From Bacteroidales bacterium (GTDB lineage Bacteria; Bacteroidota; Bacteroidia; Bacteroidales; UBA932), in contig JAFVWT010000017.1 of assembly GCA_017501525.1 (NCBI GenBank), positions 41,144 through 105,143 of the forward strand: a stretch of DNA of 64,000 nt. Direction: 5' to 3'. The notes beneath the pieces were generated by a model. The model saw only the letters and a list, made by a program, of their open reading frames with translations, was not told the DNA's origin and did not search any database. Shown piece after piece: positions 24,610 through 64,000 of this stretch (within the stretch, counting starts at the first letter, position 1; every line of letters starts with the position of its first letter). The translations under genes and the position numbers were made by a program.

Positions 24610-24782
24610 GATGTTCTATAAAAGACCTTGTAGAGATTTATGGAATTTTCTCCAGGAAGATTTTCTTGATTAAGCATAGCGGGGCTATGGGAATGAAAGA
24701 AAAAGGGAAAGATTCCGAAAAAACATAAAGAGGGCAAAAGTTCTTAGAATATATTTTTTAAACGTGGATTTTATAGAACATC
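24610..24782. repeat. Dispersed element copy A, complete with 14-bp terminal inverted repeats
   Basis: It is bounded by GATGTTCTATAAAA (24610-24623) and its exact reverse complement TTTTATAGAACATC (24769-24782); total length 173 bp, with no ORF of note. Internal words GATTTATGGAATTTTCTCC and TTTAAACGTGGA recur in other copies in this window. The features are those of a MITE-like non-autonomous element or a mobile intergenic repeat. Confidence 0.75.
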
Positions 24783-31547: not shown

Positions 31548-33908
31548 ATGAAAAGGATTTTATCTCTTGCAATACTTGCTACCGCTATGTTGGCAAGTTC
31601 ATGTGCTTTGAAGGATGATTTCAAAGGTACAGATTCTGATTTTGCTACTGTATCTGTCACAGTTGGTGAACCTGGTACAGTTTCTACTCGTGCTATCGGT
31701 GATGGCACTACTGTTGATGAACTTCATTATGCAGTCTACGATGACCAAGCCAACCTCATTGGAGAACTTGGAAGAACCATTCAAGATGTAACCTTTCCAA
31801 CCCAAGTTAAGATTACATTGGCAAAAGGACAGACATATAGCATTGTATTCTGGGCCCAAAACGGAGAGACCGATGCTTATTCTATCGCTACAATAGACAA
31901 CTATAACGATTTAAGACACATTACAATCAACTACCAGGATGAAAACAATGATGAGAAACGTGATGCATTCTTCAAAACCGTATCTCATACCGTAACAGGC
32001 GACATCGAGTTGGATGTAACCCTTGAGCGTCCTTTCGCACAAATCAATCTTGGTGTTACCGAGGAAGATTGGAATGCTGCTAAAGTAGCAGGTATCGAAG
32101 TGGAAAAATCGGAAGTGGTTATCAGCAATGCTGCTACATCATTGGATTTGTTCAACGGAAAAGTCGGAAACGGCGGAGTACCAGTACCGGTTACCTACAC
32201 CGCTTCAGTTATCCCTGGTGAAGATTTGATGGTAGATTTTGACAAGAACGGAACCAAAGAAGCATACAAATATCTCTCATTGAGCTATATTCTTGTATGC
32301 GACGAGACTCAGACACCTGACAATGAAGGTATGTATGGTACTAACAGTTCTCTTGTGAACACAACATTCACTCTATCCACCACCAAAGCTCCTGTAGTTG
32401 TAAAAGTTGACAATCTTCCTGTTCAAAGAAATTGGAGAACCAATGTTATAGGTAGAATGCTTACCGGTGACATTACATTCAATATCGATGTTGATCCTAT
32501 CTTCGATGGTGAAGAGAATTATCCTGATACAGATGAAGAAAGACTTCGCTTTGCAGCTCTTAACGGCGGTACAGTTACATTGACTGATGATGTTGAATTG
32601 GAATCCAGCCTTATCGTAGCTGATAATAAAGATATGGTTATCGACCTTAATGGCCATAACATTACTAATACCTCAGGCAGCACTCTAATTGGTGAAGGCG
32701 ATGGCATTATAGTTTACGGTAACCTTACAATTAAAGGTAATGGTACTGTATCATCAAATACTCGTACTGTTTGGGCAAGAGGTGACTATGGTGCTAAAGT
32801 TACAATCAATGGTGGACACTACATCGGTGTAAATCATGCTGATGCCAAATGTGAGGTTATCTACGCAAGTGGCAACGGAATTATCGACATTTATGGCGGT
32901 ACTTTTGAAGCTACCAATATGGCTGAAGGATTTGCTGCACCCCAATATGCAGTTTTGAATCTCCACGGAAATGGCCAAACCGGTTGTGACATCAATGTAT
33001 ATGGTGGTACATTCGTGAAATTCGACCCTTCTAACAATATTTCTGAAAATCCTAAGAAGAACTTTGTAGAAGAAGGATATTACAGTGTGGAAAAAGATGG
33101 CAACTTCATCGTTGTTGAAAATCCTGCAAATGTCCTTGTTTCTAATCTTTCAGAATTGGGATCAGCTCTAAATGCTGCAACTGGAGACTTCATCATCGGA
33201 CTTATTGGCGATATCACTGGCGATGTAACCGTTGAACAAAAACCTGATGTAAAAATCACAATTGAAGGTAATGGTCACAACTACGACGGAACAATCCTTG
33301 TAAATGGAAAAAGTGCACGTTATGCAACAGCAGGATTGACCATTCAAAACATCAACTTCAAGAGCACTAGCATTACAGCAGATGCATACATCAATCTTGG
33401 CTCAGGTGATAACAATACTCGCTACACCAGCAACGTTATCGTTAAGAACTGTACCTTTGAAGGATATGCCAATGAACCTGTCGCTGTTAAATCATACACA
33501 GGTGGTGATCACAACCTCTCAATCATTGGTTGTACAGTAGATAACCAAATGCATTCATTGGCTCAGCTAGCCAATGTTGAGACCGATTTGCAAATTAAAG
33601 ATTGTAAAGTTTATTCAAAGAACGGTGCAAACATCAACAATTCACCTTCACTTGAAATGAGCAATTGTATCTTCGACGTAAAAGGTTACGCTGTTCGCGT
33701 AGGTGTAAACGGTACAGTAAATTCTGAACAAAAGACATTTGCCATTACCAACAGCACATTGAAATCAGCTTGCGCTGAAAGTGATGATGCAGTTATCGTA
33801 TTCCGTACCTCTGCAACCAATGCAAAACTTACCTTGACCAGCACAACTCTTACCGGTGCTCGCCAAATTATCGGAAACACAACTGATACTCAGATTATCG
33901 TTAAATAA
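31548..33908 (+). CDS. DUF6562 / beta-helix surface lipoprotein
   Basis: A 786-residue lipoprotein: signal with lipobox ASSC (Cys19), then a DUF6562-like fimbrillin-type region to about residue 325 marked by IVFWAQNG, RPFAQINLG and LPVQRNWRTNVIGRML. Residues about 335-786 form a right-handed parallel beta-helix with many short TINGGHYIG, IDIYGGTF and IKDCKVYS rungs. It is probably surface exposed; adhesin, glycan binding or pilus accessory roles are all possible. It has its own -7 box and a strong terminator. Codon use is more regular than in its neighbours, suggesting high expression. Two paralogues lie at 55.8-58.7 and 61.7-64 kb. Confidence 0.8.
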   Translation: MKRILSLAILATAMLASSCALKDDFKGTDSDFATVSVTVGEPGTVSTRAIGDGTTVDELHYAVYDDQANLIGELGRTIQDVTFPTQVKITLAKGQTYSIVFWAQNGETDAYSIATIDNYNDLRHITINYQDENNDEKRDAFFKTVSHTVTGDIELDVTLERPFAQINLGVTEEDWNAAKVAGIEVEKSEVVISNAATSLDLFNGKVGNGGVPVPVTYTASVIPGEDLMVDFDKNGTKEAYKYLSLSYILVCDETQTPDNEGMYGTNSSLVNTTFTLSTTKAPVVVKVDNLPVQRNWRTNVIGRMLTGDITFNIDVDPIFDGEENYPDTDEERLRFAALNGGTVTLTDDVELESSLIVADNKDMVIDLNGHNITNTSGSTLIGEGDGIIVYGNLTIKGNGTVSSNTRTVWARGDYGAKVTINGGHYIGVNHADAKCEVIYASGNGIIDIYGGTFEATNMAEGFAAPQYAVLNLHGNGQTGCDINVYGGTFVKFDPSNNISENPKKNFVEEGYYSVEKDGNFIVVENPANVLVSNLSELGSALNAATGDFIIGLIGDITGDVTVEQKPDVKITIEGNGHNYDGTILVNGKSARYATAGLTIQNINFKSTSITADAYINLGSGDNNTRYTSNVIVKNCTFEGYANEPVAVKSYTGGDHNLSIIGCTVDNQMHSLAQLANVETDLQIKDCKVYSKNGANINNSPSLEMSNCIFDVKGYAVRVGVNGTVNSEQKTFAITNSTLKSACAESDDAVIVFRTSATNAKLTLTSTTLTGARQIIGNTTDTQIIVK

Positions 33909-41968: not shown

Positions 41969-42418
41969 TCAGCGAAGTTCGTTGGCTAAAATTTCACAAG
42001 CTACAGCGACACAACGAGTACAAGGACGCAGATTGTAATAAGCATGGTCTCTTGACGATGGGACTGGAGACTGAGGTTCTCTTTTGATTGCCAATAAATC
42101 GGCACAGATATAAGACCCCATACGTTCTTTAAACTCTGATGCAACCCTTTGCACTGCCTCATAATTTCGTTTTTTAGCCTCCTTATCTGTCACATTATCA
42201 TATGGGTAAATCCATCCTAAGACCATAAACATTCCTGTAACAGCACCACATACCTCTCTCAATCTTCCCATTCCTCCCCCAAAAGAAGATGAAAATTTCA
42301 AAGCACTGGAAGTATCTATCCCCAACTGTTCACTAAAAGCCAACACAACTGCCTGCGAACAGCTATAACCATTCTCAAAAAATCCGATACCTTTTCTTAC
42401 TAAATCTTCTTTCATCAT
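41969..42418 (-). CDS. C_GCAxxG_C_C family redox-type protein
   Basis: A 149-residue protein of the C_GCAxxG_C_C family (PF09719). Conserved cysteines appear in NGYSCSQAVVLAF, the glycine-rich FSSSFGGGMGRLREVCGAVTG, and C-terminal RPCTRCVAVAC. Members are thought to bind metal or a cofactor or take part in redox reactions; none is well characterised. It is a single gene, convergent with nadD. Confidence 0.85.
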   Translation of the reverse strand: MMKEDLVRKGIGFFENGYSCSQAVVLAFSEQLGIDTSSALKFSSSFGGGMGRLREVCGAVTGMFMVLGWIYPYDNVTDKEAKKRNYEAVQRVASEFKERMGSYICADLLAIKREPQSPVPSSRDHAYYNLRPCTRCVAVACEILANELR

Positions 42419-42609
42419 AGCTCCAATATCAAATATCTTGTCAATAAATCCTACTCAATATATAACCACACCTATTCAGCGAACTTACGTAATTGGTTTA
42501 CAGAATCATCGGATTTTAAACTTAATCAAAGGGCTAAACCCATTTGACACTCTATCGGCAAATTTAAACATATTTTAACAGCAGCATAGAAATTTATTGA
42601 AAACTATTT

Positions 42610-42617
42610 TAATTTTG
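42610..42617 (+). promoter_or_regulatory. -7 promoter box of ppa
   Basis: TAATTTTG, 27 bases before the ATG at 42645. Confidence 0.6.
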
Positions 42618-42644
42618 CATCAAATATCTATATAGTCATATATT

Positions 42645-43268
42645 ATGAATATCATTCAATCGCATAAGTCACATCCATGGCACGGAATTCCATTAGGAGA
42701 CAATGCTCCTTGCGAAGTTACTGCATTCATTGAAATTGTTCCCACCGATACCGTCAAATACGAAGTCGATAAAGTTTCAGGCTATCTGACAATTGACAGA
42801 CCTCAGAAATTTTCAAATATAGTACCTGCCCTGTATGGTTTTCTACCCAGAACACTATGCTCGAAAAATATGGCTGCCAGAAGTGCTGAAGTCTTGGGAA
42901 GAAATGACATTGAAGGGGACGGAGATCCCTTAGACATATGCGTTCTAACAGAGAAAGAGGTTACCCATGGAGATATTGTTGTAAAAGCAATTCCAATCGG
43001 AGGACTCAGACTACTCGATCACAATCAAGCAGATGACAAAATAGTAGCTGTCCTTAAAAACGATGCAATATATCAACAATATACTGATATATCGCAACTC
43101 CCTGAGGCCATTGTAAAAAGACTCATCCACTATTTCACAACATATAAAGACATCCCCGGAAGCAGCAAAGTCCGAATGAGATTTGAAGGACTATATGGAG
43201 CAGAAGAAGCCCATGAAATAATAAGACGTTCCATTAAGGATTACGACAAGGAAATATGGGGCAAATAG
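42645..43268 (+). CDS. ppa: Inorganic pyrophosphatase, family I
   Basis: A 207-residue soluble pyrophosphatase. It has EVDKVSGYLTIDRP, YGFLPRTLC and the metal-binding DGDPLDICVLTE (DxDPLD), followed by the usual DNQADDKIVAV-like segment. It hydrolyses PPi made by biosynthetic reactions. It is monocistronic, with a -7 box upstream and a hairpin (43318-43348) downstream. Confidence 0.94.
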   Translation: MNIIQSHKSHPWHGIPLGDNAPCEVTAFIEIVPTDTVKYEVDKVSGYLTIDRPQKFSNIVPALYGFLPRTLCSKNMAARSAEVLGRNDIEGDGDPLDICVLTEKEVTHGDIVVKAIPIGGLRLLDHNQADDKIVAVLKNDAIYQQYTDISQLPEAIVKRLIHYFTTYKDIPGSSKVRMRFEGLYGAEEAHEIIRRSIKDYDKEIWGK

Positions 43269-43317
43269 CATAGTACATCTGAGTATATTCTATCTTTACT
43301 GACTTTCAATAACCTAC

Positions 43318-43348
43318 GGATGTTCTACACCCCAGTTTAGAACATTCC
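43318..43348. repeat. Short inverted-repeat hairpin of the dispersed family
   Basis: GGATGTTCTA and TAGAACATTCC surround a 10-base loop. The arms match the terminal repeat of the full element at 24610-24782. It may serve as the ppa terminator, although no long T tract follows. Confidence 0.55.
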
Positions 43349-43366
43349 TTTAACAATATTCAAATC

Positions 43367-44290
43367 ATGAAGTCAGTAAATACATTAAAACCCAAAGGAG
43401 GAAAAGAATGTTTCTTTGAGTTTATGGATTCTATTATCAATGAACTTCATAAACTTGAAAAGACCCGTACGGCAGAGACCTACACATCTGCGAGAAGAAG
43501 TTTAAGAAAATTTTACAAACAGAAGAACCTCCCCTTCTACAAACTAGATGCCCAACTTATTCATTCATACCAGAGCCATCTAATCCAAAAAGGGCTCAGT
43601 ATGAATACTATCTCATTCTACAACAGAATATTAAGAGCTACATACAACAGAGCTGTCTCACAAAACAGAACTAAAAACCGCCACCCTTTCAAAGAAGTTT
43701 ACACTGGAGTTGACAAAACCTTAAAAAGATCTGTTCCCATTAGCTGTATCAAAAAGATCAAGCAGATGAAATTCATTGAAGGGAGCTGCGAAGACTTTGC
43801 AAGAGATATCTTTATGTTCAGCTTTTATACCAGAGGAATGTCTTTTATAGATATAGCATATTTGCAGAAGAAAGACCTCAAGAACGGGATCCTCACTTAC
43901 AGAAGAAAAAAGACCGGACAACTACTCTTTATAAGGTGGGAACAATGCATGGAAAATATTGTATTGAAATACTACGACAATGAATCACAATATCTGTTAC
44001 CTATTCTAAACAACAATAATAGAGATACAAGAAAGCAATATATCTACACTGCTCATAGGGTAAATCAGGCCCTTAAAAAAATAGGAAAGAGACTTAATCT
44101 GGATATACCATTGACAATGTATGTTGCCAGACATTCGTGGGCAAGCATAGCACAAAATAAGAATATTCCTCTATCAATTATCAGCAAAGGAATGGGACAC
44201 GATTCAGAGGAAACGACTAAAATATACTTAAACTCATTAGACAACAACAGGATAGACAATGCCAACAATAAAATTATAAGATCACTCTAA
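43367..44290 (+). CDS. Tyrosine site-specific recombinase of the Bacteroidales type
   Basis: A 307-residue integrase with an N-terminal SAM-like DNA-binding domain (about 15-105) and a catalytic domain. Catalytic residues are Arg156 (FYTRGMSF), a Lys in RRKKTGQ, Arg255 (YVARHSW), His278 (GMGHDS) and Tyr287 (TKIYLNS). The residue that is usually His three positions before Arg255 is Tyr252, as in many Bacteroides recombinases that invert DNA. No mobile element surrounds it and no att site is visible, so it may act on chromosomal invertible segments such as that at 58.8-59.0 kb (inference). Confidence 0.86.
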   Translation: MKSVNTLKPKGGKECFFEFMDSIINELHKLEKTRTAETYTSARRSLRKFYKQKNLPFYKLDAQLIHSYQSHLIQKGLSMNTISFYNRILRATYNRAVSQNRTKNRHPFKEVYTGVDKTLKRSVPISCIKKIKQMKFIEGSCEDFARDIFMFSFYTRGMSFIDIAYLQKKDLKNGILTYRRKKTGQLLFIRWEQCMENIVLKYYDNESQYLLPILNNNNRDTRKQYIYTAHRVNQALKKIGKRLNLDIPLTMYVARHSWASIAQNKNIPLSIISKGMGHDSEETTKIYLNSLDNNRIDNANNKIIRSL

Positions 44291-44326
44291 ATAGACCATT
44301 AAGAGGTTATCCCACTGAGATAAAAC

Positions 44327-44368
44327 AATTTCAGGGGCACATCCACATATAGATACACCCCTGAAATT
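44327..44368 (-). terminator. Terminator of dnaK (shared with the recombinase gene)
   Basis: AATTTCAGGGG and CCCCTGAAATT form an 11-bp stem. On the minus strand it is followed by GTTTTATC. Confidence 0.7.
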
Positions 44369-44391
44369 ACTATTAATACTCTATATTATAC

Positions 44392-46302
44392 TTACTTGAC
44401 TTCTTCAAAGTCCACATCTTTAACCTCCTCTTCTGATGAGCCTTGACCGCCGGCAGGACCTTGTGCACCAGGATTAGGGGCTCCGGCCTGCTGTGCCTGA
44501 GCAGCTTTTGCCATATCTTCAGATGCTGCATGCCAAGCTGTATTAAGTGCCTCAGTTGCACGTTCGATAGCAGTAATATCGCTCGATTTGTGAGCCTCCT
44601 TCAACTGTCCAAGAGCATTTTCGATCGCACCCTTCTTATCTGCAGGAATCTTGTCTCCATATTCCTTCAGATTCTTCTCGCTTTGGAAAATCATTGCATC
44701 TGCAGCATTGATCTTATCGATTCTCTCTTTCTCAGCTTTGTCAGCTGCCTCGTTGGCTTTAGCCTCATCACGCATTCTCTTAATTTCATCATCACTTAGT
44801 CCTGAAGAAGCCTCGATTCTGATCTTCTGCTCCTTACCTGTAGATTTGTCTTTTGCAGAAACATTGAGAATACCATTTGCATCTATATCGAAAGTCACTT
44901 CAATTTGAGGAATACCTCGAGGTGCAGGGGTAATTCCATCCAAGTGGAAACGTCCGATAGTCTTATTGTCACGAGCCATTGAGCGTTCGCCCTGAAGGAC
45001 ATGTATTTCTACTGAAGGCTGGTTGTCACTTGCTGTAGAGAACACCTCCGACTTACGGGTAGGGATTGTTGTATTAGACTCGATAAGTTTTGTCATCACA
45101 CCTCCAAGTGTCTCTATACCAAGTGATAGAGGGGTAACATCCAACAATAGGACATCTTTCACATCTCCCGCCAATACACCACCTTGGATAGCAGCACCTA
45201 CTGCTACAACTTCGTCAGGGTTAACTCCTTTGTTAGGAGCCTTTCCGAAGAATTTCTCAACAATCTGCTGAATTGCAGGAATACGGGTAGAACCTCCTAC
45301 CAACAATACTTCATTTATATCTGATACTGTCATTCCTGCATCTGCAAGAGCCTTGCGGCATGGTTCGATGGTTCTTTGAATGAGATCATCACATAGTTGC
45401 TCAAATTTTGCTCTGCTCAAAGTTCTTACCAGGTGTTTTGGAACTCCATCAACAGGCATGATATAAGGAAGATTGATTTCAGTAGTTGTCTGGCTCGACA
45501 ATTCAATCTTAGCTTTTTCCGCAGCTTCTTTCAGACGTTGGAGAGCCATAGGATCCTTGCGAAGATCCACTCCCGGATTTTCGCTCAAAAACTCTTCTGC
45601 CATCCAGTCTATGATTCTGTGGTCAAAATCATCACCACCAAGATGTGTATCTCCGTTGGTTGACTTCACTTCAAACACGCCATCACCCAATTCGAGGATA
45701 GAGATATCGAATGTACCGCCACCAAGGTCATATACTGCAACCTTCATTTCACTGTTCTTCTTATCCATACCATACGCCAACGCTGCAGCAGTAGGCTCAT
45801 TGATGATACGTCTTACTTTTAGACCTGCAATCTCTCCGGCCTCTTTTGTAGCTTGTCTTTGTGAATCACTGAAATATGCAGGAACTGTGATAACGGCCTC
45901 TGTTACCTCCTGACCCAAATAATCTTCTGCTGTCTTCTTCATCTTCTGAAGAACCATAGCTGAAATTTCCTGAGGAGAATAAAGTCTGCCATCAATGTCC
46001 ACTCTTGCAGTGGCATTATCACCCTTTACTACCTTATAGGGAACTCTTCCGATTTCCTGTTGAACTCTATCATAAGGTTCGCCCATAAATCTTTTAATTG
46101 AGAAAATGGTCTTATGAGGATTGGTAATAGCCTGTCTCTTTGCAGGATCTCCAATCTTTCTCTCACCATTATCTGTAAAAGCAACTACCGAAGGGGTAGT
46201 TCTTTTTCCTTCACTGTTAATGATAACAGCAGGTTCATTACCTTCCATCACTGCTACGCAGGAGTTGGTAGTACCTAAGTCGATTCCAATAATTTTTCCC
46301 AT
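44392..46302 (-). CDS. dnaK: Chaperone DnaK
   Basis: A 636-residue Hsp70. Seen are the ATPase motifs [27 protein letters not shown] and [14 protein letters not shown], the linker [16 protein letters not shown], the substrate-binding domain and the acidic tail [13 protein letters not shown]. It is separate from grpE-dnaJ and has no exact TAnnTTTG box upstream. A stretch resembling a sigma-54 promoter lies at 46364-46378. Confidence 0.98.
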
Positions 46303-55819: not shown

Positions 55820-58747
55820 CTAGAATAGGCTGAAGTTGTATCCATTAGGGATGTCAACATATTGATGGAAGTCTGCCTTTCCGTTAATTTTTACACCATT
55901 TACAGTAATATTATGCACCATAAATTGGAGTTCATACATGTAAAGATCACTTGACAATATCTTTTCGCCATCTTCAAGTATAAAGTCCACATCTGATAAT
56001 ACGATTGTATTAGAGGCATTAATCTCGATACCCTTTGCTACTGTAGACTCATATATATGAAGTGCGTGTACAGTTCCATCAAGCACCATACCTTCATTGA
56101 TAGTACACTTTTCAAACTTATATTGATTGGGAGCTGCTTCAATTGTAACTGCTTCGTCGTATGTTTGTTCAGAAACAACATAAACCAAACCATTATCACC
56201 CATTTCCAATTTATATCCGTCCAAGATCACTGTATTTCCATCTTCACTGAAATCAAATGTATTCACGTCTGTATCTGTTTCATAAATATACAATCCTTGA
56301 TCTCCTTTCTGACAATCAATAAATTTAGAATTGGTAATTGATACTTCTGTCTCTGCATTTAATGTTCCTATTGCAATTCCAGGTTTCTCTGTCAATTTCT
56401 CAAAGGTACAATTTTTAACGATTACACTCTCAACTTCACTTCCATAAGCCTCGTGTATCTTAAGACCACGGGTTCCTGTAAATGAGCACTCATCAAATGA
56501 GACCTGAGAATCACTGAACCAAACAGAATAAACACTACTTTCTTCAGACTTAAATGAACAATTCTTGAACTCAAAAATACCGCTCAAAGTAATACCACTC
56601 AAGAATGTTACATTCTCAAAATAAAACTGTTCATCATTGCCATCTCCAATCTCCAAATAAGTAAATTCCCAAGCATCCTCCGCATACGAGACAGACTCAT
56701 CATCTATTGTTATATTTTTAACAATCAGCTTTTTATCACTGTTTGCCAGACGAATAGGGCCCACACCCGAACCTGTTGCAACAAGAGTTCCATTGCCATC
56801 AATAGTCAATTGAGTAGGACAATCTTCTGAAAGGAAAGGCGTACTACCATGTTGTGCACCGGTTTTCCATTCAAGTCTTGCACCGTCAGAAATAAGAATG
56901 ACAGCTTCCTGAGGTTGACTATTCTCTATATCTGAGAAGATGGTTGTGAGAGCATCGGTTCCTGCAACAGCAGAGACATTATATGTATTATCAATCAAAG
57001 TTATACCGTCAGCCAAAGCTACCACTTCTTTACCATCGATAAATACTCTGCCTGTTCCTCTGTTACCTCCCAACAATACTCCGTAAGGAGATACATACTC
57101 GCTCTGATCTGTGTAGTTTTCAACTTCTGCCGAACAATTGTCTATATACAAGTTTGAACCTACTGATTGACCTACTGAGCCTATAAAGCGGCTGTTGGCT
57201 CTGTATTCATTATTCCTCGAATTGATGAGGGTGAAGGTTCCTCCTGAGACTTGAGAATTTGATATTTTACTGTCTTGATTTTTTCCGGCAATCATTCCGA
57301 TCAAACCACCGGCCAAACCGGATTCATCAGCCATCTGATGTGTTGTGATATTGGTATTTTCAACACGACAGTTGTTTACAATAATTCCATTTTCAGCGAC
57401 AAAACCAATAAGTCCGCCCACTTTGTTTGTTCCTTTAATATCACTGTTGATAACCTTGACATTATTCAATGTTATGGTTCCGTATGTACGAGCAAACAAT
57501 GCTCCTGCATAAGCACTCTCTCCTATACCTGCATCTGATTTGGCATTCTCTATAATAAGATTTTCAACTGTTGCTGTTGCAACATCAGGGAATAACGCAG
57601 AGATATCTCCTGAGGCCTTTGTTGCTATACCTGCAAGATAATTCTTGATGGTATGACCGTTTCCAATAATTGTAAGGTTATTAAACCTATTTTTTTGAAC
57701 AGGTACAGGATGATTGTTGAAATTGATATTTGCATCTATACTCAGTTTGGGAGAAGCGGGGTTATTGGCAATTATCCACGCCAAATGCTCTGCTGTGGAA
57801 ATTCTGTATACTCCATCCGAGTCTTTTCTAGGCTCGGTAAGGGTTTTACCATCCCAATCTGTAACATCTCCCAGGAACCTCTCATCAACGATTACATTGA
57901 AGTCGGTAGTGGTGGTAAGGATATTTCCGAGGATATTGGTACGATAGTTTCTCTGAACGGGGATATTGAACCATTCACGAGTGACTGCACTTTCGTTTGT
58001 CTCCATCTTAGCTCTTACTGTAGTTTTTGCATCTACAAGAAGATAGTTCATTGAAAGCCATGTATATTCCTCATATCCTGTCAATTTCTGCTTTTCTGCT
58101 GAAGGTGTGCTCGCTTTGGATAGAGTTATTGTCGTAGTATTTCCTTCTACCTTTCCATCTTTATCGAGCAGATTAAAGCTTGTATATATTCCTTCCACTT
58201 CAATAGCAGTCTGAGTAATCTCAATACCTGAATCTGTCGCCAGAGCATAATCCAATGTTGCAACATTCAACTGTGCAAAAGGACGGGTAAGATAAATTGT
58301 TTCAGATTTGGCTCCTTCTACGGTGTAACCCAATTTGTTTGCATAGAATGCGTCAAGATCTTCATTGTTGGCAGCCACAGATGTATAATCAACTGAAACC
58401 TTACCACTATTTGCGTCAAAGTTGTAAGGTGCACCGTCGGCTTGCGCCCAAAATACGATGTCATAAGTAACACCTGTTACCAATGGAAGGCTTACTGTCG
58501 TTACTCCTCCTTGAAGTGTAGCTGTTTGGGTAAGAGATTCACGATATTCTCCTCCCTGATAAACAGCGACTGTCAGATCTGTAGCTGTCATTCCGTCGGA
58601 GTAGGCACGTGTTCCCATCTCAGGAGCGGCGATATTGAATGTCACCATATCTCCATTTTCTGCGATGTAAGGAGTCTCTTCCTTACTACAAGCAGATGAA
58701 AGCAACATAGCCGCTATTGCGACCAATGAGATTAAATACTTTTTCAT
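55820..58747 (-). CDS. DUF6562 / beta-helix surface lipoprotein under an invertible promoter
   Basis: A 975-residue lipoprotein: lipobox SSAC (Cys20), a DUF6562-like region to about residue 300 (IVFWAQAD, RPFAQLNVA, IPVQRNYRTNILGNIL), then a long right-handed beta-helix with rungs such as GSNLYIDNCSAEV, FEFKNCSF and VSFDECSF. It is paralogous to the genes at 31.5 and 61.7 kb. It should sit on the cell surface, where it could bind or adhere to host or bacterial glycans (inference). Its only candidate promoter lies in a segment with inverted repeats and points the other way in this sequence, so the gene is probably OFF here. Confidence 0.8.
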   Translation of the reverse strand: MKKYLISLVAIAAMLLSSACSKEETPYIAENGDMVTFNIAAPEMGTRAYSDGMTATDLTVAVYQGGEYRESLTQTATLQGGVTTVSLPLVTGVTYDIVFWAQADGAPYNFDANSGKVSVDYTSVAANNEDLDAFYANKLGYTVEGAKSETIYLTRPFAQLNVATLDYALATDSGIEITQTAIEVEGIYTSFNLLDKDGKVEGNTTTITLSKASTPSAEKQKLTGYEEYTWLSMNYLLVDAKTTVRAKMETNESAVTREWFNIPVQRNYRTNILGNILTTTTDFNVIVDERFLGDVTDWDGKTLTEPRKDSDGVYRISTAEHLAWIIANNPASPKLSIDANINFNNHPVPVQKNRFNNLTIIGNGHTIKNYLAGIATKASGDISALFPDVATATVENLIIENAKSDAGIGESAYAGALFARTYGTITLNNVKVINSDIKGTNKVGGLIGFVAENGIIVNNCRVENTNITTHQMADESGLAGGLIGMIAGKNQDSKISNSQVSGGTFTLINSRNNEYRANSRFIGSVGQSVGSNLYIDNCSAEVENYTDQSEYVSPYGVLLGGNRGTGRVFIDGKEVVALADGITLIDNTYNVSAVAGTDALTTIFSDIENSQPQEAVILISDGARLEWKTGAQHGSTPFLSEDCPTQLTIDGNGTLVATGSGVGPIRLANSDKKLIVKNITIDDESVSYAEDAWEFTYLEIGDGNDEQFYFENVTFLSGITLSGIFEFKNCSFKSEESSVYSVWFSDSQVSFDECSFTGTRGLKIHEAYGSEVESVIVKNCTFEKLTEKPGIAIGTLNAETEVSITNSKFIDCQKGDQGLYIYETDTDVNTFDFSEDGNTVILDGYKLEMGDNGLVYVVSEQTYDEAVTIEAAPNQYKFEKCTINEGMVLDGTVHALHIYESTVAKGIEINASNTIVLSDVDFILEDGEKILSSDLYMYELQFMVHNITVNGVKINGKADFHQYVDIPNGYNFSLF

Positions 58748-58821
58748 AAACTTGATTTTTAATTGTTATAAAGTGTATTATGTTTTGTTAATATTGTAAA
58801 TTTATATGCTAAATAGTCAAA

Positions 58822-59023
58822 TCTCTAAGTAAGAGAAATTTGACATTCTAAATATCTCATATACAAAGTTTTGAAGCGAATAGCAATTTAATTTGAGCAA
58901 GATCTCAGGCGTGAATGACAAATTTTAGTTAAGGTGCATACTTTTTTTTTATGTTGTTTTTCAGGGAAAATCAATATAATTTACCTACATTTGTCATTAA
59001 GTAGAACTTCTCTTACTTAGAGA
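58822..59023. promoter_or_regulatory. Invertible promoter segment bounded by perfect 16-bp inverted repeats
   Basis: TCTCTAAGTAAGAGAA (58822-58837) and its exact reverse complement TTCTCTTACTTAGAGA (59008-59023) bound a 170-bp segment. Each repeat is itself TCTCT-5-AGAGA, the form of a recombinase site with two arms around a spacer. Inside, TACATTTG at 58986-58993 matches TAnnTTTG and points rightward, away from the lipoprotein gene starting at 58747. After inversion it would point at that gene, with a leader of about 100 bases. Confidence 0.8.
58986..58993 (+). promoter_or_regulatory. -7 box inside the invertible segment
   Basis: TACATTTG lies 14 bases inside the right repeat. In this orientation it transcribes toward the ATP-grasp-like gene at 59123. 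Confidence 0.6.
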
Positions 59024-59105: not shown

Positions 59106-59113
59106 TATGTTTG
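59106..59113 (+). promoter_or_regulatory. -7 promoter box of the ATP-grasp-like gene
   Basis: TATGTTTG matches TAnnTTTG, with TTTTGGG about 22 bases upstream as a -33 element. It ends 9 bases before the ATG at 59123 and thus decides the start. Confidence 0.6.
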
Positions 59114-59122
59114 TACTGCAAT

Positions 59123-60175
59123 ATGTACATCTTCAATCCCGAACACGACCTTTGCTTAGCAAATGGAGACATCCATTTTGTTCCACCCGACAGCGCCCTC
59201 GCTTTTGGGAGAGATTGCGCATCATTAACCAAATATATGCAAGGATTAGAGGCAGCTTCAGATTGCGACTTCCCCACAATAAAAAAGATAACCCCCTGGG
59301 GATGGAACCTCCATTTGAGAGAGAGACTGCTTAAAGAGGGATACCCGGCAGAACTAATAGCTACAGCCGAGGAAATCGCATCTATAACAAGATTATCACA
59401 TAGGGAAAATTGCACTGCTTGTCACAAATACATAGAAGAGAGAGTTGAAGATACCGCAAATTTGCTCCTTCCTCACACATATAGAATAACCGCAAGAAAT
59501 ATTGAAGAGGTTCTCTCATTCCTTTCAGAGAGAGGCAATGTAGTTCTCAAAGCCCCCCTTTCAGGGAGTGGCAAAGGGATCAGATTTGTCAGCAAACAAC
59601 TATCTCACAGTGATATAGGATGGTGCAAAAACAACATTCTCAAACACCATTCTGTAATCGTGGAGAAGAGATACACCCCTACCCTCGAATTTGCACTGCT
59701 ATTCAAAATCTCAAAAGAGCAAGGGGTAGAGTTTAAAGGCTACTCCCTATTTTTCACCCAGAACGGGGCTTATAGAGGAAACATCCTTGGCAGCAATAAA
59801 TATATTTTGGAGAAAATTGTTGAATACATCCCTAAGAGAATGCTTTTAGAAACAATAAAAGCTTTTAAAGAATACTTTTCCAAAAATATTGCAGAGGAAT
59901 ATGAAGGTTTCATAGGAGTAGACCAATTTATTTGCACCGACTACCCAAGCGGAGAAAAACTATACTACAATCCATTAGTCGAGATAAACTTCCGAATGAC
60001 AATGGGACTCCTCGCCCGCAATATATTTGACAACTTCTCCTCAAAACTACAAATTCAAGATGGAACACACATATTTGAAATCATTCGGGACAAAACAGGC
60101 AAATCGGTAAATTACCGTTATGAGATAACACCTGTTAATTTCCCCATCACAAATCAGAGGCAAAATAGAATATAA
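59123..60175 (+). CDS. ATP-grasp-like protein
   Basis: A 350-residue protein. It begins MYIFNPEHDLCLANGD, and the middle holds VVLKAPLSGSGKGIRFV, like the ATP-binding glycine loop of ATP-grasp enzymes, followed by an acidic VEKRYTP and a C-terminal YNPLVEINFRMTMG with the Glu-x-Asn metal-binding pair. ATP-grasp enzymes join a carboxylate to an amine or thiol. The substrate is unknown, and similar Bacteroidales proteins are annotated as hypothetical. It starts at 59123 rather than 59099, since the promoter box lies between. Readthrough from the invertible promoter could raise its expression in the present orientation. Confidence 0.68.
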   Translation: MYIFNPEHDLCLANGDIHFVPPDSALAFGRDCASLTKYMQGLEAASDCDFPTIKKITPWGWNLHLRERLLKEGYPAELIATAEEIASITRLSHRENCTACHKYIEERVEDTANLLLPHTYRITARNIEEVLSFLSERGNVVLKAPLSGSGKGIRFVSKQLSHSDIGWCKNNILKHHSVIVEKRYTPTLEFALLFKISKEQGVEFKGYSLFFTQNGAYRGNILGSNKYILEKIVEYIPKRMLLETIKAFKEYFSKNIAEEYEGFIGVDQFICTDYPSGEKLYYNPLVEINFRMTMGLLARNIFDNFSSKLQIQDGTHIFEIIRDKTGKSVNYRYEITPVNFPITNQRQNRI

Positions 60176-60283: not shown

Positions 60284-61296
60284 TTATTTAACGATCCAAC
60301 GACCTTCACTATCCTGTTCAGCCACTTTTCCCTCTGACAAATATTTTGATGGATCATATTTAAATATACCACCTTTGATAAATTTCTCGTTAAATCCTTT
60401 TCCAAGAGGAACATATTGTCCACGATTAATGGTAATATCGCCTTCAAACACACCATTTTCAATATTTAGGACAATACCACTTGCATCTGTTTCCAATCCT
60501 GCTCCGAACACTTGAATAATGTAGGTGATTTTATTCCTTGAGGTACAAATTTACCACCTGTAATATTCAAAGTTCCTTTAACACCGGCCTTAGATGAAGA
60601 CATTTGGTGATCGATTCTACCACGGATTTCACCACCTGAGATATTTGCAACCACATTTTCAGTCTGACTATCGGCTCTCACGCGTAGAGGACTGTAGTAC
60701 TTAGCATCTATGATACCACCTTCAATATTCACAACTACCTCTTCAGCCTCTCCCCAAATGCTTGTATCAATCACATAAGGATATCCGACATTAGCTAACG
60801 CTTCACTTGAAAGGTTTTCAATTGTACCACCTTTAATTGTAAGGGTTCCACGATTTGTAATTGTGTTGGACACATATTCTCCTCCGACACCTAAGTCGGT
60901 GTAAGAAATTCTACCCGTACCAACCCCATCTGCAATTGTCAAATCACCATCATTTAGTAGTAACTGATAACCTGAAGTTTGTTCCTTTTCCAAACTGATA
61001 GAGTGACCATTAAGATCGAGAACAGCTTTACCTCCATAAGGGAAAGTGAACTGCTCATCCAATACAACATCTTCTCCAAGAGTCAATCTTTCATTATCGC
61101 TGTCCATATATGTCATAGGATCCAATGATGAGAATTGACCTCCTGTTATAGTAATAGATTTTGCTGCAAGCGCATCATCTGCCCAACTAAGGAGATTAGA
61201 CATTGTGCTACCAACATAGTTATGATTGTGGAAAACACCTCCTGTAATTGTCAGATTCTCCATTTCTAATTGAATTGATTGCAATATATGTTTCAC
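60284..61296 (-). pseudogene. Decayed beta-helix lipoprotein fragment (5' truncated, frameshifted)
   Basis: The minus strand encodes beta-helix rungs (LTITGGVFHN, ITITGGQFSS, LTIKGGTIEN, VNIEGGIIDA, LNITGGKFVPQGI) like the C-terminal parts of the DUF6562 lipoproteins. The frame breaks near 60535: after PQGI the homologous sequence continues in another frame (KITYIIQVFGAG, then IENGVFEGDITINRG) to 60284. No signal peptide or DUF6562 region is present. The 5' end abuts an IS66-like remnant near 61300. A terminator remains, so it was once a complete gene. Confidence 0.75.
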
Positions 61297-61299
61297 CGG

Positions 61300-61608
61300 C
61301 TTGACCGGATATCTATGTTATCATAAGTCAAATAGAGACAGCATTCTTATGATACTACATCGTTGAACAAAAAAATGCCTGTTTATTGCTCAACTGAACA
61401 ATTATTAGCGTCAATCATTAGGGGAGCCACTCAAAATTGTTTCGAGCTCTAAGTGTTATGCTTATCTGGCGTTATGGGTTAGCTTGTGCTCTGCACAGTA
61501 CTCTTCAATCGCAAGGACTTCTTCACGTGTTATCATATGCTTTCCTTTTTAATGCAAAAGTAGCCAGGAACATTCCTGACTACAATATGCATTTCATCGG
61601 ATGCTTAC
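61300..61608 (-). mobile_element. Probable IS66-family remnant
   Basis: The minus strand from 61608 starts GTAAGCATCCGATGAAATGC; IS66 termini begin GTAA. A 24-codon ORF at 61462-61536 (MITREEVLAIEEYCAEHKLT) resembles the start of the small accessory protein of Bacteroidales IS66 elements and then stops. A later piece near 61310-61340 (YDNIDIR) recalls TnpB. No transposase is present. It joins the truncated beta-helix fragment. The identification is tentative. Confidence 0.4.
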
Positions 61609-61637
61609 AATCCTACTATACCAGCAGTTTGTATAAC

Positions 61638-61668
61638 AAAAAACCGAGTCCTATCGACTCGGTTTTTA
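61638..61668 (-). terminator. Rho-independent terminator of the third DUF6562 lipoprotein gene
   Basis: ACCGAGTC and GACTCGGT form a perfect stem. On the minus strand TTTTTTG follows, and the plus strand also has TTTTTATTT. Confidence 0.85.
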
Positions 61669-61689
61669 TTTAACAAAGCTTATTATTCA

Positions 61690-64000
61690 CTATTTTACTT
61701 CAATACAATCACTAATATTTGTAGCCCATGATGGTAGATCTACTGTAAACAACTTAGTATCGTAGTCATTATCACATGAAGGAACTGTGAATACATCTGC
61801 TGCAATAAGCTGACCATTTACAGTACAATTCTCAATTACAATCTTATGACCTTCTGTCAAGCTTGATAAGTCCAAGTTCATATGTGCTATAAACGAGCAA
61901 TTTGTCAAGGTTGTATTAACATATGGCTTAAGAACACGACCATAAATATTATTATAGTAAGTTCCTTGTTTAAACTCGACATTAGTGAATGACGCACTTG
62001 AAATATATGAATAGCTTGTCCACCCTGCCAAAGTAGAGTTAGAGACAATCAATTTTGCAGTTTGTGATGCGTCTCCTTCTTCTCCTGTATTAATAGGATA
62101 TAGTACTCCTTCACCACCGAGACGAACATTATCCAAAATAACATCATCCTTTACATACATAATCATAACAGCGCGAGTACCATTTTCAATAGTAAGGTTT
62201 TTAATAGTCCCACCCGATGTCATAATTCCATAATCATCACCATAACATTCAATATCCAACTTATGGCCATTACCATCTAGAATTCCTCCATCCATTTTGT
62301 AACCGTATTTATTTCCATAAGGCGCTATGGTAGCTGCCTCTGAATAAATATCGTTTGCGACGACAACATTTTCTTGACCAAGTTCAAGGAACATTTCTAG
62401 TTCATAAGCTGTGGTAGCTTCAAGGTCTGTATTAAGTGTTAAATCATAGAATAGACCGCCGTTAGGAGCCAAGAAAATTCTGTGGCTTTCTGCTGGGATA
62501 TTATTGAATTCGCAACCTTCTACATTCACAGTATGGTTAACTTCTTTATTGGTTTGGATAGTGATAGCTCCTTCAGTGCCGAAGTCACCATTGAAAGTAC
62601 AATTCAAAATGTTGTAAGTAGCACCGGAGATATTTTCATTAATATAAATACCTTGTGTTCCAACACCGTTGAAAGTACAGTTTTCAATAGTATAAACTCC
62701 GTCAGCTTTGTTTCCACTTCCAAATACTATATGTCCCCAGCTCTTAGTTGCCATATGTAGGATTTCACAATTTTTAATTGTAAAATTCTTGACTAATGCC
62801 ATCATTACTTGTAGTTCGGCAAATTCAACCTTTGTTCCTTTAGTTCCAATTATAGTTAGATTCGCATCAAATGATGCTGCCATATAAAGATCAATTGTAT
62901 GCTTACCTGCTGAAAGTTGAAGAAGGATATTATCATTGTCTCTAAGCACCTCTCCATTCAGTTGTGCAGGGTCGGTAATAACTATATCATAATTTTCAGC
63001 TGTTGGAAGAACAACATAAGTTTTTCCATCTGCAGCTAGTACTGCTTGATAACCTTCTGCAATTTTTGACTCACAGAATACTTGAGCACCACAGTCGGTG
63101 TTATTGCCTAGTGTAAATTGGCCAGCATAAATTGAAGAGACACAGTAAGTACAATGGTCGCTGACATCTGGATTTTCCATTAATTCAAAAGAACCGCCAT
63201 AAATTTTTGTATTGTCATTTGATTCAGCACCAGCGACAGCTCCATGACGACCTTTTACAATTGCATTATTGATAATAGTTTCTTCCCCTTCGTTTATAAT
63301 TGCATAAGTCAATTGGCTATATGCGATAAAGGTACCTCCGTTAACAATTACATTACCACCTGTTGAGCGTGTATTCAATGCTGCGCCATACGAACCTTCT
63401 ACTATTTGACCATCTTCACCACTTATAAATGTTCCACCATTGATTGTAATATCGCCTTCATTCCAGATAGCAGCACCACCATTTGTATCAATGTTTGTAA
63501 TAGAAATATCACCATCAATAGTCATTGTACCAAAGTTTTGGATACCACGAGCATAGATTGCGCCTTCACCAACGATAGTCAGATTAGCATAGTTATTAAT
63601 TGCATAATAGTGACGACCTTCTGATTGTAGATTAGTTGTAATAGTGTTGCCTCCCAAGTCCAAAACAAATGAAGGTACTTCAGTTGCAGAGGCACGACCA
63701 ATTGGAGATGTCGGTGGAACTCCGAAAATCAATGACCCATCAAGATTAATATCCTCTTCCAAGATAATATTGTCTACACCATTGTTAATTGCTTCTTGCA
63801 ACTCTTCAGGGGTTGATACAAATGTATAGTTGTTATCGGGATTAGAATTTCCATTTTCATCCACAAATCCCTCTTCGATAGTGATATTGAAGTCTGTGGT
63901 TGAAGAGATTAGGTTACCTACAATATTGGTACGGTAGTTCTCTCTTACGGGTACACTGGTAAAAGTGTGATCAATTACCTGACCATTATCCAATGTAATC
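61690..64000 (-). CDS. DUF6562 / beta-helix surface lipoprotein, 5' end outside the window
   Basis: The reading frame is open to the window edge. About 770 residues are visible. The first part has the end of the DUF6562-like region (SVPVRENYRTNIVGNLISSTTDFNITI), and the rest is a beta-helix with rungs such as MTIDGDISITN, ITINGGTFISG, VIVNGGTFIAY and YTIENCTFNGV. The signal peptide and promoter are outside. It is paralogous to the 975-residue gene and followed by its own terminator. A surface adhesin or glycan-binding role is inferred. Confidence 0.78.
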   Translation of the reverse strand, partial: ITLDNGQVIDHTFTSVPVRENYRTNIVGNLISSTTDFNITIEEGFVDENGNSNPDNNYTFVSTPEELQEAINNGVDNIILEEDINLDGSLIFGVPPTSPIGRASATEVPSFVLDLGGNTITTNLQSEGRHYYAINNYANLTIVGEGAIYARGIQNFGTMTIDGDISITNIDTNGGAAIWNEGDITINGGTFISGEDGQIVEGSYGAALNTRSTGGNVIVNGGTFIAYSQLTYAIINEGEETIINNAIVKGRHGAVAGAESNDNTKIYGGSFELMENPDVSDHCTYCVSSIYAGQFTLGNNTDCGAQVFCESKIAEGYQAVLAADGKTYVVLPTAENYDIVITDPAQLNGEVLRDNDNILLQLSAGKHTIDLYMAASFDANLTIIGTKGTKVEFAELQVMMALVKNFTIKNCEILHMATKSWGHIVFGSGNKADGVYTIENCTFNGVGTQGIYINENISGATYNILNCTFNGDFGTEGAITIQTNKEVNHTVNVEGCEFNNIPAESHRIFLAPNGGLFYDLTLNTDLEATTAYELEMFLELGQENVVVANDIYSEAATIAPYGNKYGYKMDGGILDGNGHKLDIECYGDDYGIMTSGGTIKNLTIENGTRAVMIMYVKDDVILDNVRLGGEGVLYPINTGEEGDASQTAKLIVSNSTLAGWTSYSYISSASFTNVEFKQGTYYNNIYGRVLKPYVNTTLTNCSFIAHMNLDLSSLTEGHKIVIENCTVNGQLIAADVFTVPSCDNDYDTKLFTVDLPSWATNISDCIEVK

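Follow-up and report, generated by a model that had tools for sequence, protein, structure and literature searches.

Introduction

For Bacteroides fragilis three master invertases, Mpi, Tsr0667 and Tsr19, are described (PMC4747536). Mpi is a serine recombinase acting on 13 regions, with seven capsule promoters among its targets, and Tsr0667 acts on three SusC/SusD clusters and nine other regions by shufflon-type inversions (PMC4747536). The tyrosine recombinase Tsr19 (BF2766) flips two promoter segments, a local and a distant one, action at a distance being described for both Tsr19 and Tsr0667 (PMC4747536). In B. thetaiotaomicron, several phase-variable S-layer lipoproteins of the BT1927 family lie behind invertible promoters (PMC12548429, PMC12118408), and phage and complement resistance are ascribed to BT1927 (PMC12548429). 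Gut invertons of the Bacteroidota have been sorted into inverton-invertase groups by their repeats, with recombinases within 5 kb (PMC11892184).

Here we analyzed a stretch of DNA of 64,000 nucleotides (the window, C16:41144-105143) from a draft genome of 1.53 Mb in 19 contigs that is 82.8% complete. Judged from its sequence and by comparison with other loci, the segment at 58822-59023 of the window is very probably an inverton of the site-specific type that carries a promoter close to one of its ends, is flipped by a tyrosine recombinase and switches a DUF6562 lipoprotein ON and OFF. As a switch it is of a known kind (Mpi, Tsr19 and BT1927-type), and phase-variable surface lipoproteins are already known; the more interesting part is the multi-locus set of such switches, with a recombinase that lacks a local target.

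Compared by description, Tsr19 is similar in being a tyrosine recombinase that acts on promoter segments and has a distant target, and it differs in having a target close by and a reported total of two regions (PMC4747536), whereas eight distant pairs of sites and no adjoining site were found here. Mpi and Tsr0667 share with the proposed system the arrangement of one master recombinase and many dispersed inversion sites; Mpi, however, is a serine recombinase, a family (PF00239) with no match here, and the inversions by Tsr0667 are shufflon-type, in contrast to the single promoter segments found here. Compared by arrangement, the BT1927 family likewise places several homologous surface lipoproteins behind invertible promoters. 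Its described repeat is CCGTTACCTABVRAGTAAC and its loci lie near site-specific integrases, whereas the sites here are TCTCT-N5-AGAGA and no pair was found with a tyrosine recombinase closer than 14.6 kb, several contigs ending sooner than that. The published inverton-invertase groups share the repeat-based grouping and the link to a recombinase, and TCTCT-N5-AGAGA is possibly among their motifs (PMC11892184). DUF6562 was named in no paper of the literature searched, with supplements and most subscription journals outside that search, and the string TCTCTTNNNAAGAGA was found in none, in a search with the same limits that a site drawn as a logo would also escape.

The first-pass annotation had drawn its comparison from Bacteroides. 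The DnaK protein shared 81% identity with that of a MAG bearing the name Alistipes; for a Butyricimonas MAG the value was 77%, for B. muris 74% and for an uncultured Bacteroides 73%, and five same-family genomes gave 79-92% (nine genomes compared in all). This one protein suggests that the organism is not a Bacteroides but belongs to the Bacteroidales as a relative of Alistipes. Alistipes belongs to the Rikenellaceae.

Proposed recombination sites and invertible segment

The sequence TCTCTAAGTAAGAGAA occupies 58822-58837, and 59008-59023 holds its exact reverse complement, with all 16 bases matching and 170 bp enclosed, as the first-pass annotation had reported. The repeat can be extended to 19 nt at 95% identity. 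The left recombination site (+ strand) reads TCTCT-AAGTA-AGAGA-A and the right site (- strand) is its exact inverted copy; together they bound a predicted invertible segment of 202 bp (58822-59023), whose flipping is proposed by comparison with other loci. Inverted repeats of at least 16 bp with partners 60-600 bp apart occurred in 0 of 100 dinucleotide-preserving shuffles of the whole window, and chance was rejected as the origin of the pair on this count. At a minimum of 14 bp, the shuffles contained 0.17 inverted repeats on average and the window two, namely the repeat at 58822 and a 14-mer at 24610. TCTCT-N5-AGAGA was present in the 64-kb window at two sites only, both ends of the segment, with a mean of 0.13 in the shuffled windows, one of which (1/100) held two. 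The arm-spacer-arm form given in the earlier annotation (TCTCT-5-AGAGA) is thus correct, and it turned out to be the key feature.

In the proposed mechanism, a tyrosine recombinase would bind TCTCT-N5-AGAGA at both ends, the inverted copies would pair through their identical 5-bp spacer AAGTA, and the segment would flip. In one orientation transcription from the promoter would pass through the 74-bp leader to the gene of the DUF6562 lipoprotein (ON), and in the assembled orientation the promoter would point away (OFF).

Promoter box and proposed target lipoprotein

The window segment contains one TAnnTTTG box, TACATTTG at 58986-58993 (+ strand), whose end is 30 bp from the outer end of the repeat. 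TAnnTTTG is given as the -7-type consensus of the Bacteroidetes in two papers (PMC3090145, PMC8748976). No TTG was found within 30 bp upstream of the box and the -33 element of this promoter is therefore weak or absent; a TTG 19-22 bp from the box was present in only three of the seven lipoprotein loci described below. As the box points away from the gene at 55820-58747 (- strand), the assembled state is OFF, which agrees with the single outward-directed promoter box noted earlier. This is the one state in which the locus has been seen, in a single assembly of the species.

The leader between the segment and the start codon of the lipoprotein gene spans 74 bp (58748-58821, - strand). The gene encodes a predicted lipoprotein of 975 aa, which is the proposed target. 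Its DUF6562 domain (PF20200) scored 31.6 bits (E 1.5e-7) against a curated cut-off of 25, in line with the earlier assignment, and the protein was aligned with 10 paralogues. The long C-terminal part had no Pfam match over cut-off, and no relatives of solved structure were found at E 0.1. The description of this protein as a beta-helix was not confirmed, since Pfam Beta_helix had no match to it; among the seven sister proteins three were matched, one over cut-off. The signal peptide and lipobox, both read by eye, suggest that the protein would be exposed on the surface.

Could the segment be a relic, formerly invertible and now fixed in the OFF state? A single state has been seen, and the AAGTA spacer occurs at no further TCTCT-N5-AGAGA site in the genome. 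The repeats are, however, still perfect over 16 bp with the spacer included, the box and its distance agree with what is found elsewhere in the set, and the reading frame is uninterrupted over 975 aa, so that a locked relic is very unlikely.

A DUF6562 paralogue of 786 aa without an inverton is located at 31548-33908 (+ strand), where no TCTCT-N5-AGAGA site is present. More lipoprotein-like coding sequence, split over several ORFs on the - strand and cut by the contig end, occupies 60284-63999, and a weak PF20200 match at C16:104999 falls in this coding stretch at the end of the window.

A genome-wide set of probable switches

The genome was searched for the pattern TCTCT-N5-AGAGA, 155-185 bp, TCTCT-N5-AGAGA with both 5-base spacers free. 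Eight complete pairs were found (segments of 187-202 bp), and the reversed control pattern gave none. Besides the window pair with spacer AAGTA (58822-59023), there were two pairs with spacer AAATA (C4:7307 and C15:50933, the latter referred to as C15b), four with AAAAA (C1:558, C15:1149 or C15a, C5:109233 and C14:264) and one with TAAGA (C1:14104). Contig C18 starts with half a segment, which is 53-69% similar, about equally, to either half of other segments; its state was left uncalled for this reason. As a single site, TCTCT-N5-AGAGA-A gave 30 listed strand hits, merged by hand into 19 distinct places, with 15 at the pair loci and C18, and the reversed control gave seven strand hits. No paired site was found in viral contigs. 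A contig ends within 1.2 kb for four of the eight pairs and for the C18 half-segment, and within 5 kb for the window pair.

Seven of the eight pairs (196-202 bp) are located upstream of DUF6562-type lipoproteins of 784-1259 aa, which share a common N-terminal region and are strongly divergent beyond it. The label DUF6562-type is used because three of the seven pass the Pfam cut-off for DUF6562 (window, C4 and C15b; three below, C5 unmatched) and four pass in a six-frame PF20200 search (C5 with a weak match), the remainder being weaker or unmatched. Searched with PF20200, the genome gave 12 matches up to E 1. Seven had an inverton upstream, one was the second gene behind the C15:50933 inverton, one begins beyond a contig end, and three, including 31548-33908, had no inverton by the pattern. 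In each of the seven lipoprotein segments a TAnnTTTG box lies at a distance of 28-31 bp from an end, a sequence-predicted promoter that in the ON state would read out there toward the gene. By the direction of the box, C15:50933 and C14 are ON, and the window, C4, C1, C15:1149 and C5 are OFF. The eighth pair, C1:14104, is located upstream of an operon that looks fimbrial by reading, and its box is one base off TAnnTTTG. The DUF6562 lipoprotein named as target in the first-pass annotation is retained, with the amendment that the window switch is one of a set on sister lipoproteins.

The position of the box in the assembled state bears on a second reading, in which the segment would be a two-way selector, one state driving the lipoprotein and the other a 350-aa ORF on the far side (59123-60175, + strand; no Pfam or NCBIfam match). 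The OFF-state invertible promoter points at this ORF in the sense direction from about 130 bp before it, and the fimbrial-looking C1:14104 locus likewise has a far-side gene directed away from its inverton. The ORF, however, has a fixed promoter candidate of its own, the box TATGTTTG at 59106-59113 (+ strand), 9 bp before its ATG, and the far-side genes at C4 and C15b point toward the inverton, so that an OFF promoter would read them antisense. These two loci alone are clear on the far side, because repeat, short ORFs or contig ends are present there at C1, C15a, C5 and C14. Since the far-side genes at C4 and C15:50933 face the inverton, ON/OFF switching of the lipoprotein fits better, and a two-way choice is to be regarded as doubtful.

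Dispersed units of near-constant length with terminal inverted repeats might also be non-invertible, MITE-like transposon relics whose termini resemble recombinase sites, and the genome does contain a dispersed repeat that abuts several invertons. Against such an origin, inspection of the ends by eye showed no direct target duplications, segments that belong to different spacer classes have little or no similarity, seven of the eight units stand upstream of one gene family with the promoter box at a constant place, and homologous segments flip while their flanks stay, as described below. We consider relics of this kind extremely improbable.

The dispersed repeat is about 130-143 bp long (L029:120-262, C14 of the same genome, and elsewhere) and was matched 35 times in the genome at E 1e-5; of these matches 31 exceed 100 bases, with 82-100% identity. 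The repeat lies directly against several invertons on their far side and may explain the contig ends there. Four leaders are long (197-370 bp; L026:758-1127, L027:1349-1717, L024:6966-7306 and L028:11037-11233) and contain an imperfect inverted repeat, TCGTTC...GAACGA, which by eye is not in the three short leaders; it is possibly an RNA element or a second mobile unit.

Evidence for inversion

Tyrosine recombinases test the spacer by strand exchange. Although the spacers were left free in the search, both sites had the same spacer in all 22 pairs, which come from 13 genomes and among which related loci are not independent observations. Paralogous loci of the same genome were compared in both orientations. 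The C15a and C14 segments aligned inverted with a score of 190 and directly with 25 (shuffle maximum 28), whereas their far flanks aligned directly (408 against 22 inverted) and their leaders aligned as well (122). For C1 and C14 the segment scored 101 inverted and 20 direct, and the far flank 76 direct and 21 inverted.

Relatives gave the same picture. In the recombinase-linked segment of G013:C22 and G015:C15, 111 of 111 bases were identical in opposite orientation (222 against 15), with both flanks direct (580 and 590). The segments of B. muris and B. rodentium were inverted (90 against 15; flanks 312 and 336), as were those of B. rodentium and B. stercorirosoris (55 against 19) and of L088 and L090 (176 against 24), the last pair being alike in the left flank alone. 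The same orientation was found for the two copies of G077, for B. muris and B. stercorirosoris, and for C1 and C15a; G100/G257, G003/G013, G003/G001 and G001/G013 gave no clear result.

These three kinds of comparison (spacers, paralogous loci and relatives) argue that segments of this kind invert. The window segment itself reached a best score of 26 against the paralogous segments (shuffle maximum 25) and has no clear homologue, and for this reason its own flipping is a deduction from the set. The invertible OFF-state promoter proposed in the first-pass annotation is nonetheless well supported by the eight pairs, the 22 matched spacers and the flipped homologous segments between unflipped flanks. 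Inversion of the window copy, the part of the recombinase encoded at 43367-44290 in it, a resulting change in expression and a surface location of the protein are all inferred.

Opposite orientations were seen at a same-genus, recombinase-linked inverton (L057:9575-9731 and L058:5030-5184) before an operon with fimbrial-looking lipoproteins, where the spacer lengths of the sites differ by one base.

The candidate recombinase

The whole genome contained five PF00589 matches. No PF00239 (serine recombinase) match was found at E 0.001 in the 82.8%-complete genome, and a serine invertase of the Mpi type was rejected on this ground; of the two families left open in the first-pass annotation, the tyrosine recombinases are most likely. 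The proposed invertase is a stand-alone tyrosine recombinase of 307 aa (43367-44290, + strand; PF00589 E 3.6e-10) with a SAM-like N-terminal domain and a catalytic domain. R156, K182, R255, H278 and Y287, which we take to be its catalytic residues, were invariant in 10 of 10 aligned members. HxxR is a motif of tyrosine recombinases; residue 252, in the H position, is Y in all 10 aligned members (YxxR). NCBIfam gave distant Xer-type models only, far below cut-off.

An inverted repeat of at least 15 bp, starting at most 131 bp past the aligned end, accompanied the gene in 16 of the 18 relatives with 51-58% identity; the exceptions were L082, which is cut by a contig end with one site visible, and L056, which had none. 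Five of the 18 were chosen for having a pair, and 11 of the 13 chosen by protein similarity alone had the repeat. By reading, 11 of the 16 repeat cores were exactly TCTCT-N5-AGAGA, L057 and L087 had a 6-bp spacer, L088 and L090 had ACTCT-AGAGT, and L055 was partial. Among recombinases at 30-44% identity, one of nine had such a repeat within 200 bp, and that of L061 lies about 660 bp on.

Across 299 genomes of the family, pairs were found in 13 and a reversed control hit in one. A recombinase of at least 300 bits was present in 11 of the 13 pair-positive and 4 of 52 pair-negative genomes (Fisher p 1e-7), a cut-off that was set after the scores had been seen and that G058 just misses at 297.6. 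The two pair-positive genomes without it, G001 and G003, had relatives of 37-39% identity only. The pair-negative genomes with a close relative were G054, 1 of 37 taken in order from G019-G060 with three skipped and thus not a random sample of the 286 negatives, and G012, G015 and G018, 3 of 15 from the same genus; in G012 and G015 a variant repeat beside the recombinase gene was missed by the pattern. At a cut-off of E 1e-60 the counts were 13 of 13 and 12 of 52. The sequence comparisons point to a recombinase clade linked to TCTCT-N5-AGAGA sites, and the 4 of 52 weaken the number and not the link.

The usual adjacency of recombinase gene and inverton, seen in 16 of 18 relatives, is not found for the window copy. 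No TCTCT-N5-AGAGA site is present beside it, and 42400-44500 holds four short or imperfect inverted repeats of other form. The gene is 14.6 kb from the window inverton, and its product would for lack of such a site act at a distance. Any recombinase match is at least 210 kb away from the two C1 pairs, and none was found on contigs C4, C5, C14 and C15, with the caveat that four pairs stand within 1.2 kb of a contig end.

The segment may therefore be invertible and flipped by another enzyme, either a Xer protein, one of two integrases of about 410 aa, or one missing from the draft. The genome contains four other tyrosine recombinases, it is 82.8% complete with several pairs at contig ends, and the window recombinase, unlike 16 of its 18 relatives, has no site beside it. 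The four are, however, less apt, as the window recombinase is the only one close to the site-linked clade; the two integrases are 25-29% identical to it, and by reading the remaining two resemble XerD and XerC. In nine pair-positive genomes no window-clade recombinase was found in the sequence examined around at least one pair, and seven of these have one elsewhere (G000, G013, G033, G062, G077, G100 and G257, not G001 and G003); at G062 and G077:C5 a contig ends close to the pair, which a recombinase gene may yet adjoin. Another recombinase is unlikely, and the tyrosine recombinase at 43367-44290 is most likely the invertase of the window segment. It would act in trans on the window pair and at least seven others, so that cells would differ in the sister lipoproteins that they display.

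A tentative extension, possible but not favored, is that this one recombinase without an adjacent switch of its own is a dedicated trans-acting master of at least seven sister lipoproteins and the fimbrial-looking operon, with the 5-bp spacer in the role of an address. Single loci in the genome carry AAGTA and TAAGA, two carry AAATA, and the AAAAA loci could recombine with each other, in which case they could trade promoter segments or rearrange the chromosome. The C15a locus is patchy in its similarity. Its far side is 96-97% identical to C5 and C14 and 83% to C1, and its gene-side leader is 92% identical to C1 and 62% to C5 and C14. This pattern fits an exchange between AAAAA loci and does not show it, because the far side is the dispersed repeat and the gene starts of C1, C14 and C15a are about equally alike (81-82%).

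With this set, the DUF6562 lipoproteins of a small, Alistipes-like genome would join the targets of promoter inversion. A recombinase clade is also linked to the simple site TCTCT-N5-AGAGA, and the matching of its spacer would make switches and their partners findable from assemblies alone. If the eight switches are independent, up to 256 surface states would by arithmetic be possible, and a use against phages and immunity may be envisaged by analogy with BT1927.

In a more distant relative, L061:2782-2994, a 29-bp inverted repeat with the core TCTCT-TCGCT-AGAGA lies between a recombinase (39% identity) and an operon of exopolysaccharide type by reading, an arrangement that resembles the one described for Tsr19.
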